This document shows, in pieces, positions 36,973-40,470 of a stretch of DNA of 64,000 nt; position 1 is the stretch's first letter; each line of letters opens with the position of its first letter. The stretch is from an uncultured Eubacteriales bacterium (lineage in GTDB: Bacteria > Bacillota > Clostridia > Peptostreptococcales > Anaerovoracaceae): assembly GCA_902786855.1 (NCBI GenBank), contig CADAEH010000002.1:1-64000 (forward strand). The letters are read 5' to 3'. The notes below the pieces were generated by a model that did not search any database, had not been told where the DNA came from, and saw only the letters and a list, made by a program, of their open reading frames with translations. The translations under genes and the position numbers were made by a program.

Positions 36973-39900
36973 TCACAGGTCAAATATACTGATCTGCGCT
37001 GAGTCAGGCAGACCTTTGAACAGCCCATGCCTTTTAAGGTCATCAATATTGGTTGCTGACAGCCTTGTCCTGGACCTGACATCATCAATTGTAGAAAAGT
37101 CCTGCTCTTTGTAAGCGGACACCAATGATTCTGCAGCAGTATCCCCTATACCGCTGATCGCATTAAAAGGAAGCATTACTTTTCCATCAACAACAGAGAA
37201 CCTGCACGCTTTTGCGGTACCCAGCACCGGCTCTGTAAATTCGTATCCCCTTGACAACATCTCATATATTACCTCGTATACGGTGAGATGTTCTTTTTGC
37301 TTAGCAGTGGCAGTGTTGCCCAGCTTCTCTATTTCATCCATCCTGCGTTCTATCTCAGGTATTCCGCGCCATATGGATTCAGCATCGAAATTATCAACCT
37401 TCGAGGAGAACCATGCCGCATAGAAAGCCTCCGGATAGTTCACCTTGAACCATGCCATCCTTATAGACATCATTACATACGCAGCAGCATGTGCACGCGG
37501 GAACATGTACTTGAGTGTCTCGCATGACCATATATACCAGTCAGGCACGCCATGCTCTTTCATCATGTCAAGCTGTTCCTGGCTCAGGACCCTGTTTTTA
37601 CGAACTATCTCCATTATCTTGAAAGCATCGCCATTAGGAAGGCCTTTGCTTATCAGGAAATTCATGATATCGTCACGGCACGAAATAACTTCATCGATCG
37701 TTGCTGTTCCATTCCTGAGAAGATCCTGAGCGTTGTTGGTCCATACATCAGTACCATGTGAGAACCCGGACATCTTGATCAGAGCTGAAACAGTCGTTGG
37801 ATGTATGTCATCGAGCATTCCACGGGTAAAATTCGTGCCAAACTCCGGGATAGCATAGGTGCCGTGTGTGAATCGGTAGTCCGGATTCTTTATGTTAAGA
37901 GCGTCAAGTGATGTGAAAATACTCAGAGTTTCTCTGTCATCAAGCGGTATGTTCATGGGATCAACACCTGTCATGACTTGCAGATGTCTTATAAGCTGCG
38001 GCACATCGTGTCCAAGTATATCCAGCTTGAGCAGATTTTCATCAATTTTGTGATAATCAAAATGTGTCGTGATCACATCCGTATCACGCTTGTTGGCAGG
38101 TTTCTGGACCGGACAGAACTCATAGATCTCATGGTCGTCAGGCACTACTATGATACCGCCCGGATGCTGGCCGGTCGTACGTTTTACCCCTGTACAGCCC
38201 TTTACCAGATAATCGATATCATACTTGCTGGCATGGATATTATTATCCTCGACGTAATGTTTGACATAGCCGAAAGCTGTTTTGTCAGCTATCGTAGCGA
38301 CCGTTCCGGCCTTAAATACATTTTTCTCTCCGAAGATCTCACCGACATATCTGTGCGCTACCGGTTGATACTCTCCGGCAAAGTTAAGGTCTATATCAGG
38401 TTCCTTATCACCCTTGAATCCCAGGAAGGTTGCAAATGGAATATTGAGGCCTTCTTTTTTCATCCGTGCGCCGCATTCAGGACAGACCTTATCAGGCATA
38501 TCGTAACCTGTATCATATTTGTCAGGTTCATCTGACCACTGAAAGTGTTTGCATTCAGGGCAGACGTAATGAGGCGCGAGTGGATTGACCTCCGTGATAC
38601 CTGCCATCGTTGCGGCAAATGAAGATCCTACAGAACCTCTCGACCCTACAAGATATCCGTCTGAATTCGACTTGCTTACCAGCATCTGAGCAGCAATATA
38701 CATGACAGCATATCCATTGCCTATGATCGAACTGAGCTCGGTCTCGAGTCTCTCTTCTATCTCAGGCGGCAGTGGATCACCGTATATTGATCTCGCTTTG
38801 GCATAGCAGCTTTCCCTCAGCTGATCTTCTGCGCCGGCTATCTTAGGCGGGAATTTGCCCTTTGGTACAGGTAGGACCTCTTCTACCATATCTGCGATCT
38901 TGTTGGTATTGGTAACAACGATCTCCTCGGCACGATCTCCCAGATACTCAAATTCTTTCATCATTTCATCTGTTGTACGCAGATAAAGTGAATCCGACGG
39001 AGTATCCCGGAAGCCTATGCCGGCCATGATGATATTGCGGTAAATCGAGGCTTCTCTTGTCGGATAATGAGCATCTGTAGTAGCGACCGTGAGTTTACCC
39101 AGTCTGTCGGCTACCTGTATTATCTTTTTGTTGAAGGCAATGAGATCGTCTGCACTTCTCACACGGCCTTCTTCGATCATGAATTGGTTGTTGCCAAGCG
39201 GCTGTATCTCAAGGTAATCATAGAAAGAAGCGATGCTGTCAAGTTCTTCGTCTGAGGCACCCCTCTCTACAGCCTGGTATACCTCACCTGCTTCACATGC
39301 ACTTCCGATGATCAGACCCTCTCTGTGTGCCTGCAGCACTGAGCGAGGAAGTCTCGGGCGTTTATAGAAATAGTCTATATGTGAAAGGCTTACCAGCTTG
39401 TATATGTTCTTAAGTCCTGTCTGGTTTTTTGCAAGAAGTATGATGTGATAAGTCCTGTTTTTTCTTATATCTATAGTGCCGTCTTCGAGCATGGCGTTTT
39501 CATCAGGATACAGATATCCCTCGACACCGTATATGATCTTGATGTTTTTACCTGCCTTGGCAAGTTTTCCGGCAGTTTTTGCTGCATCAGGAAAGCCTTG
39601 CACAACTCCGTGGTCTGTTATTGCTACCGCGGGTTGTCCCCATAAAGCTGCGGTCTTCACGATGTCTTCCACTTCATTGAATCCATCGTTATCGCTCATC
39701 TTGGAGTGGCAATGGAGTTCTACACGTCTTCCGCCCGGATATGTGTCCTGCTTCACATGCTTTTCAACTTTTTTAAGTGCACTCAGCATCATGATATTCT
39801 CATGCTCATAAGTATCGTATTCAACACTTCCTTTTGCTCTGATCATATCTCCTTCGCTGAGGTTCTCAGATATCTCAGTCATCTTTTCTGAGGAGATGAA

Positions 39901-40470
39901 TGCTTTAAGGCAGAAGGTCCGGACCTTGTCCGCGACCAGAATGCTTACTAGTATCTTGCCTGATCTTATTGGCTGAGATTCTGTTTTAAATACTTCTCCT
40001 TCCAGACAGACCTTATCCTTGCTTCCGACATATCCCTCCAGATCTTTATAATCTAACGGATCATCACTGAAATCTTTCCCCATAAGAATAAGCTCTCCAA
40101 GGCTATTCTCATGTGCTGGTTCTTCTTTTCCTCCGCGTCTTTTGTAAGTGGAATTACCATTTCCGTTTCCGCCTCTGTATCCGTTTGAACTATTGTCTTC
40201 ATTTCTGTCCGACGTCTGGATCTTGATGCCTGTATACATGTAGTTGATCATGATCCTGGAGACTGAGCCTATCCTTGCTCTGATCCGTTCTTTCATGACC
40301 CTTTCCACGCTTCTTGGCATCACAAAATTGAGCTTGGTGTCTATATTAAGCACCAGGCCCTGTCTGTCAACTGAGATACCAGTTATTTCTATATCAAGAT
40401 TTTTCGCATCTCTGCCTGTAGCTTCTGTCAGCTCTTCGGCAGTCAATATATCAGATGGTATCTTTATCAT
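36973..40470 (-). CDS. polC: DNA polymerase III PolC-type alpha subunit lacking the DEDDh exonuclease domain
   Basis: This 1,165-residue replicative polymerase compares with about 1,440 in Bacillus. Order: short N-terminal domain (1-90), Gly/Asn-rich linker (91-115), OB-fold (about 145-235), PHP domain (about 246-480), then PolC fingers/palm with VGSRGSVGSS (608-617), Zn module (C637, C640, C663, C666), PDIDLNF (Asp692, Asp694) and LDILGHD (Asp817), and a QISIFDL clamp-binding tail. In Bacillus a proofreading exonuclease of about 190 residues (FDVETTG onwards) interrupts PHP between GMEANL and YHATLL. Here only about 25 residues join GVEGYL to YHIILL. All nine PHP ligands look present: H253, H255, D260 or D262, H287, E317, H342, C392, D466, H468. 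Start overlaps the ispG stop by 1 bp. Confidence 0.95.
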   Translation of the reverse strand: MIKIPSDILTAEELTEATGRDAKNLDIEITGISVDRQGLVLNIDTKLNFVMPRSVERVMKERIRARIGSVSRIMINYMYTGIKIQTSDRNEDNSSNGYRGGNGNGNSTYKRRGGKEEPAHENSLGELILMGKDFSDDPLDYKDLEGYVGSKDKVCLEGEVFKTESQPIRSGKILVSILVADKVRTFCLKAFISSEKMTEISENLSEGDMIRAKGSVEYDTYEHENIMMLSALKKVEKHVKQDTYPGGRRVELHCHSKMSDNDGFNEVEDIVKTAALWGQPAVAITDHGVVQGFPDAAKTAGKLAKAGKNIKIIYGVEGYLYPDENAMLEDGTIDIRKNRTYHIILLAKNQTGLKNIYKLVSLSHIDYFYKRPRLPRSVLQAHREGLIIGSACEAGEVYQAVERGASDEELDSIASFYDYLEIQPLGNNQFMIEEGRVRSADDLIAFNKKIIQVADRLGKLTVATTDAHYPTREASIYRNIIMAGIGFRDTPSDSLYLRTTDEMMKEFEYLGDRAEEIVVTNTNKIADMVEEVLPVPKGKFPPKIAGAEDQLRESCYAKARSIYGDPLPPEIEERLETELSSIIGNGYAVMYIAAQMLVSKSNSDGYLVGSRGSVGSSFAATMAGITEVNPLAPHYVCPECKHFQWSDEPDKYDTGYDMPDKVCPECGARMKKEGLNIPFATFLGFKGDKEPDIDLNFAGEYQPVAHRYVGEIFGEKNVFKAGTVATIADKTAFGYVKHYVEDNNIHASKYDIDYLVKGCTGVKRTTGQHPGGIIVVPDDHEIYEFCPVQKPANKRDTDVITTHFDYHKIDENLLKLDILGHDVPQLIRHLQVMTGVDPMNIPLDDRETLSIFTSLDALNIKNPDYRFTHGTYAIPEFGTNFTRGMLDDIHPTTVSALIKMSGFSHGTDVWTNNAQDLLRNGTATIDEVISCRDDIMNFLISKGLPNGDAFKIMEIVRKNRVLSQEQLDMMKEHGVPDWYIWSCETLKYMFPRAHAAAYVMMSIRMAWFKVNYPEAFYAAWFSSKVDNFDAESIWRGIPEIERRMDEIEKLGNTATAKQKEHLTVYEVIYEMLSRGYEFTEPVLGTAKACRFSVVDGKVMLPFNAISGIGDTAAESLVSAYKEQDFSTIDDVRSRTRLSATNIDDLKRHGLFKGLPDSAQISIFDL

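Follow-up and report, generated by a model that had tools for sequence, protein, structure and literature searches.

PolC replicases without a DEDDh exonuclease domain (hereafter exo-less) were reported in 2013 by Timinskas et al. (PMC3919608), in whose available text they make up 6% of PolCs and 16% of those in genomes with both PolC and DnaE1, and are confined to Clostridia and Negativicutes except for one extra copy in Thermotogae. According to the accessible part of PMC5636811, the D226N change in DnaE1 of Mycobacterium tuberculosis abolishes the PHP exonuclease and leaves the metal content unaffected, and the PolC of G. kaustophilus, with one residue changed, is reported to be without PHP exonuclease. 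Proofreader replacement is described in one direction only, from PHP to DEDDh, in the available portions of that paper and of a 2020 review, the latter stating that DnaQ-type exonucleases replaced PHP in three events (PMC7694242). A 2025 study, as far as its accessible text describes the selection, retained only PolCs with an RNase_T insert and would omit the exo-less kind (PMC11963600). None of the papers surveyed, which covered the journals in part, was recognised as testing whether the PHP of an exo-less PolC proofreads.

The window, a stretch of 64,000 nucleotides, contains a polC reading frame on the minus strand with an ATG start and no internal stop codons (Table 1), and its product has the 1,165 residues given by the first-pass annotation. 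The name PolC was assigned from NCBIfam (NF001688, 1397.8 bits against a cut-off of 873; TIGR01405, 1303 bits against 1043.45), and Pfam identified PHP (251–421), DNA_pol3_alpha, DNA_pol3_finger and HHH_6. The top match among solved structures was G. kaustophilus PolC 3f2b (1040.5 bits, residues 142–1163), and it is solely through this alignment that the domain at residues ~142–240, which we take to be called OB, was placed. The OB region N-terminal to PHP, the zinc module and the C-terminal clamp motif are all of PolC type, and motif positions and alignment bear out the earlier description of the palm motifs, zinc cysteines and clamp tail as intact. The DEDDh insertion in PHP that is typical of PolC is absent, as in a published subset, and together with the presence of DnaE1 in the same genome this places the protein among the exo-less clostridial PolCs.

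Table 1. Positions, strands and basis of assignment of the features discussed; coordinates refer to the window unless a contig or locus is named.
Feature	Position	Strand	Basis
polC ORF	36973..40470	-	Family profiles and 3f2b match
N-terminal domain, residues ~1–90	40201..40470	-	Approximate boundary; matches first part of longer sister-genus N-terminal regions
OB domain, residues ~142–240	39751..40047	-	3f2b alignment start at residue 142
PHP first part, residues 248–320, ligands H253 H255 D262 H287 E317	39511..39729	-	Pfam and alignment
20-residue junction, the DEDDh site of other PolCs	39451..39510	-	Alignment
PHP second part, residues 341–480, ligands H342 C392 D466 H468	39031..39450	-	Alignment
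Zinc module C637 C640 C663 C666	38473..38562	-	Invariant in 61 aligned exo-less PolCs
Polymerase core with PDIDLNF (691–697) and KLDILG (815–820)	38011..38823	-	Pfam, 3f2b, motifs
Clamp-binding tail QISIFDL, residues 1159–1165, C-terminal	36976..36996	-	Motif, alignment
P0002, DEDDh-PC4 fusion, 281 aa	G000 contig C3:138276-139118; locus L001:1237-2082	-	Domain search

The part of PolC ahead of the OB domain (window 40048-40470) is 141 residues long, compared with 120 in M. kristiansenii (G359, open frame), 242–273 in five sister-genus rows and 150–258 in the other rows compared, by open-frame counts. The short form aligns with the first half of the long forms, and a second N-terminal subdomain seems, from this alignment, to have been lost in the window protein. 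The same-strand genes upstream of polC are presumably pyrH, frr, uppS, cdsA, dxr, a glycosidase-like gene, rseP and ispG, an order that we take to be close to the Bacillus polC neighbourhood.

The absence of the exonuclease domain was observed directly. In the window PolC, GVEGYL (residues 315–320) and YHIILL (341–346) are separated by 20 residues, so that the short gap first described is real and its length of about 25 residues is not; counted from E317 to H342, 24 residues lie between. The same stretch spans 199–211 residues in aligned exo-bearing PolCs, whose DEDDh domain occupies ~190 aa. No repeats were present at the 20-residue junction, the Pfam scan of the whole protein gave no RNase_T match, and neither Pfam nor NCBIfam scans matched any exonuclease family elsewhere in it. 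The earlier statement that no FDxE motif occurs elsewhere was incorrect, as FDAE is found once, at residues 1028–1031. F1028 and D1029 are almost invariant in 61 aligned exo-less PolCs and FDAE is therefore part of the polymerase, not of an exonuclease.

The exonuclease domain is consistently missing in the relatives, as read directly from their genomes. PHP is uninterrupted in the PolC of 35 of the 36 other genus genomes, including two in which the gene is broken elsewhere and still spans the junction (G032 and G019); from the 36th (G020, 59% complete) no polC was recovered. All 29 aligned genus rows have the junction without an insert. Uninterrupted PHP was likewise found in 7/7 genomes from six sister genera of the family, and Mogibacterium kristiansenii, Baileyella intestinalis, Emergencia timonensis, Aminicella lysinilytica and Clostridium aminobutyricum are exo-less by match span, with no room for an insert. 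Among genomes from other families of the order, 22 of 24 are exo-bearing and two (G058, G059) were not assessable. The source assembly is fragmented, with 62 contigs at 87% completeness, and a misassembled deletion was considered as the cause of the missing domain; the independent genomes of the genus and sister genera refute such a fault, the junction being shared by 29/29 genus rows and the cultured relatives agreeing by match span, and its probability is negligible. Nor was a second full-length polC found, the genome having one PolC match and one DnaE match, although at 87% completeness a second copy could sit outside the assembly. The first-pass reading of a PolC without DEDDh exonuclease is thus upheld by family scans, alignments and genus-wide conservation.

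All nine PHP ligand positions are occupied in the alignment, as had been claimed, in the order HHDHEHCDH and including the catalytic Asp of the M. tuberculosis DnaE1 type; the equivalence of D466 with D226 of that enzyme rests on motif order. To place this site in context, 138 PolC rows chosen by hand were compared, comprising 61 exo-less rows (31 of 64 listed class places, these being 63 and the G380 copy; 21 closed or nearly closed phylum ones; 8 of 30 genus rows; and L122) and 77 exo-bearing rows (from the order and class genome sets and 31 of 40 further genomes). The motif is complete in 60 of the 61 exo-less rows, which is 60/60 of the primary PolCs, since the lone exception (L096) is a second PolC copy in a genome, G380, that also has an exo-bearing PolC. 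It is also complete in 63 of the 77 exo-bearing rows, the others having Asn at the eighth position (13 rows) or Thr at the seventh (one row, C-to-T). Within the 138 rows, every primary PolC without DEDDh has the complete motif, and every one with a broken motif has DEDDh. The 13 Asn rows fall inside one clade of 14 rows and therefore represent one event, not 13; G. kaustophilus has this Asn too, and the clade is on that ground presumably Bacillus-like.

On these alignments a complete PHP with Asp is the clostridial norm and is not special to the window PolC. Asp466 is correctly read where Bacillus has Asn, and it is its distinctiveness that did not hold. A newly perfected PHP as compensation was rejected, because exo-bearing clostridial PolCs carry the same nine ligands and PHP therefore did not arise in that way. 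The relative rate of PHP evolution also did not differ in exo-less families, the PHP:core rate ratio averaging 1.24 in 10 exo-less families and 1.49 in 11 others (Mann-Whitney p 0.22).

Three unusual PolC-like frames were recorded during this comparison. L096 (G380:C69) is a 781-aa frame whose PHP motif is degenerate (HHDHEPANH). In L122 (G080:C112), ~56 low-complexity residues rich in Ala, Lys and Ser replace the exonuclease domain and contain no exonuclease motif. A diverged second PolC-like frame of 611 aa and ~38% identity (G030:C18:168367-170127) stands beside a normal exo-less PolC in a genus member.

Exo-less PolC is common as well as known since 2013, and the window protein is not new in kind. 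By hand count it occurs in at least 62 of 393 class genomes (at least 63 places, from an uninterrupted-PHP profile) and in at least 149 of 398 phylum genomes (at least 150 places, all listed ones uninterrupted). The loss first flagged as noteworthy therefore stands as a loss and was overstated as a novelty, given these counts and the available text of PMC3919608.

Repeated origin within the phylum was directly apparent in the PolC trees. The 129-row core tree gave 10 changes of the exo-less state, six of them forced by well-supported branches, a rough figure in that the tree is not the optimum, lying 138 log units below a constrained one; the 82-row tree gave eight changes, five forced. L096, L126, L067, L092 and five close genus rows are absent from the 129-row tree, and L122, labelled exo-bearing in the tree tests, still leaves 10 changes when relabelled exo-less. 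Placement of all exo-less PolCs in one clade, and with it a single origin of the state, was rejected by the AU test (p-AU 2.2e-56). Holding the window family together with its order was not rejected (p-AU 0.976), and with 22 of the 24 genomes from its other families exo-bearing, these trees make loss of the domain in the window lineage, not primitive absence, the most likely course. Exonuclease and core distances among the 77 exo-bearing PolCs were correlated (Mantel r 0.64, matched by 0 of 2000 shuffles), which fits an old DEDDh insertion, vertical inheritance and many losses.

The exo-less genomes were then considered for other exonucleases. No RNase_T match (PF00929) was found in 22 of 37 genus genomes (15/37 match), with six of the nine genus genomes at least 94% complete among the negative ones, nor in 20 of 32 other exo-less class genomes or 8 of 30 exo-less phylum genomes. 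Overall, 49 of 98 exo-less genomes were RNase_T-negative and the other 49 have RNase_T proteins (G020, with PolC not recovered, is excluded). PF00929 matched in all 62 comparison genomes (24 of the order, 22 of them shown to be exo-bearing, and sets of 18 and 20), largely through their own PolC, so that they are a control for search sensitivity only. Many of the RNase_T matches in the exo-less phylum genomes sit in frames of 860–970 aa, which we take to be the typical length of DinG helicases.

A PolC exonuclease profile run on 37 exo-less genomes (36 RNase_T-negative and G271) gave E<=1 in 10 of them, with a best value of 1.3e-5, compared with 1.7e-75 or better in five exo-bearing controls. 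The weak hits in family f1 (L434, L437, L438) were rejected as hidden DnaQ proteins, RNase_H_2 (PF13482) being their best match, and the G271 hit was also best matched by RNase_H_2. Proteins of this family, which match exonuclease-related families, thus persist in at least some RNase_T-negative genomes. The G189 hit lies in a 1623-aa frame of which the scanned 615-aa part matched helicase families only; the start of the frame resembles, by eye, a diverged DnaQ-type motif, and exo-less genomes may for this reason contain RNase_T-like domains that score under the Pfam threshold. The G494 hit is a 252-aa frame opening with a DnaQ-like C-terminal stretch. Similar split weak matches occur in 358–386-aa frames of the exo-bearing G037 and G046, and the protein concerned therefore probably does not track exonuclease loss.

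A search of the window genome for stand-alone DEDDh exonucleases, suggested by the first-pass annotation, recovered two RNase_T proteins: P0002 (Table 1), which carries a C-terminal PC4/YdbC-type ssDNA-binding domain behind its DEDDh exonuclease and is the RNase_T protein of the genome most like the exonuclease of PolC, and a 190-aa protein nearest KapD models. Full-length P0002 homologues are present in seven of the 37 genus genomes, G036 having two of them, and P0002 is therefore not a shared proofreader of the genus. It was also rejected as an excised PolC domain, as its exonuclease part groups with stand-alone DEDDh proteins in a weakly resolved tree and its distribution is patchy. No description of the DEDDh-PC4 fusion was recognised among the papers listed in the literature survey. 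Short frames with the PC4/YdbC part alone are abundant in genus genomes, some of which have several of them and G000 five besides P0002; mobile elements may carry these copies. At L065:6101-7863, a few genes from a DEDDh-PC4 gene, lie a DinB-like polymerase of the Y family and a NUDIX-like protein, both named by sequence reading.

The partner DnaE of the window genome, assigned as DnaE1 by its intact PHP and its lineage, lies in a 1221-aa open frame, and the PHP motif of DnaE1 was directly seen to be complete in all nine genus genomes read. If DnaE1 copied most of the chromosome and PolC had a limited role, loss of the PolC proofreader would cost nothing. Such a division has been proposed for clostridial systems with PolC and DnaE1 in the accessible part of PMC3919608, and the length and intact PHP of DnaE1 here agree with it. 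PolC is nevertheless kept in 35 of the 36 other genus genomes with its catalytic motifs conserved, and S. aureus PolC deprived of its N-terminal domain and Exo is very fast (kpol 330 per s; PMC3656037, available text), so that such a domain set suits bulk synthesis; a limited role for PolC is credible but unlikely.

Proofreading in trans by a stand-alone exonuclease of DEDDh or DnaQ fold, as by epsilon in E. coli, could draw on the two RNase_T proteins of the window genome, and RNase_H_2 proteins were found in the three f1 genomes checked. The separate DnaQ-like protein proposed in the first-pass annotation therefore has candidates, weakened by their distribution: a DEDDh subunit conserved with the replicase, as epsilon-type systems have, was not found in the genus, where DEDDh-PC4 reaches 7/37 genomes and any RNase_T protein 15/37, the most complete genomes being largely among the negative ones, and the split weak matches recur in exo-bearing genomes. 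This arrangement is accordingly quite improbable. It is also improbable that PolC proofreading is simply absent, with mismatch repair carrying fidelity or the lineage mutating faster, and PHP retained for structure or as a pyrophosphatase. Both roles have been proposed for the PHP of E. coli DnaE (PMC3666897 and PMC4822814, in the portions available), yet all nine ligands are kept in each of the 60 primary exo-less PolCs compared, unlike in E. coli, and they include the Asp that is dispensable for metal content in M. tuberculosis.

Proofreading by PHP itself is the best explanation predicted from these data, because the primary exo-less PolCs compared invariably keep the motif and half of the exo-less genomes searched are without RNase_T matches. 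PolC of the Mogibacterium/Emergencia-type lineage would have lost DEDDh from the PHP loop, leaving the 24 residues between E317 and H342; the PHP site with its catalytic Asp D466 would remove mismatched 3' ends in cis, like M. tuberculosis DnaE1; and DEDDh, redundant beside it, could then be lost. We regard this secondary loss beside a PHP site that proofreads in cis as somewhat probable. In its favour, the D-to-N change that kills the PHP exonuclease of M. tuberculosis was seen, among primary PolCs, in exo-bearing ones only. Against it, most clostridial PolCs that have DEDDh possess just as complete a motif, the D-to-N association is one event, PHP shows no rate shift, 49 of the 98 exo-less genomes carry RNase_T, and RNase_H_2 proteins persist in at least some of the others. 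The PHP proofreader of the first-pass annotation is thus a plausible candidate with a complete site, and that site is ordinary among Clostridia.

A broader reading is that replacement of PHP by DEDDh has run backwards repeatedly in Bacillota. In lineages with a surviving catalytic Asp, PolC would have shed DEDDh and other RNase_T exonucleases would often have disappeared from the cell as well, so that a large share of the phylum would now depend on PHP-only proofreading in PolC and DnaE1. We put this forward tentatively, with doubt slightly outweighing belief. Repeated loss and frequent RNase_T absence add to the interest of the system, and PHP proofreading by PolC is a clean prediction. DEDDh masks any PHP proofreading in exo-bearing PolCs, and natural exo-less PolCs remove this mask; with no RNase_T found in half of their genomes, the question can be addressed with a single protein and its Asp-to-Asn mutant. 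If the PHP of PolC does proofread, the one-way view of proofreader replacement needs revising.

The window PolC resembles the exo-less PolCs of Timinskas et al. in its uninterrupted PHP, its DnaE1 partner and the conservation of the PHP metal site within the group, and the present analysis extends the accessible part of that report (PMC3919608) by sampling more genomes, by giving evidence that the state arose repeatedly and by finding half of the exo-less genomes searched to be RNase_T-negative. With M. tuberculosis DnaE1 as described in the available text of PMC5636811, it shares nine ligands (five His, three Asp/Glu and one Cys), the catalytic Asp and a loop without DEDDh at the same site, of 29 residues in DnaE1 and 24 (E317–H342) here by counts that use different ends. 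That enzyme is, however, of the DnaE family with PHP activity and zinc demonstrated, whereas the window protein is a PolC known from its sequence. Bacillus-type PolC shares the OB, PHP, polymerase core, HhH and clamp tail, but has DEDDh and Asn where the window PolC is without DEDDh and has Asp. In domain set, the window PolC approximates the G. kaustophilus (3F2B) and S. aureus PolCs from which the N-terminal domain and Exo were removed (PMC3656037, portion available). Those constructs were made by engineering, whereas the window PolC is natural; in the G. kaustophilus chain, Asn takes the place of the catalytic Asp.
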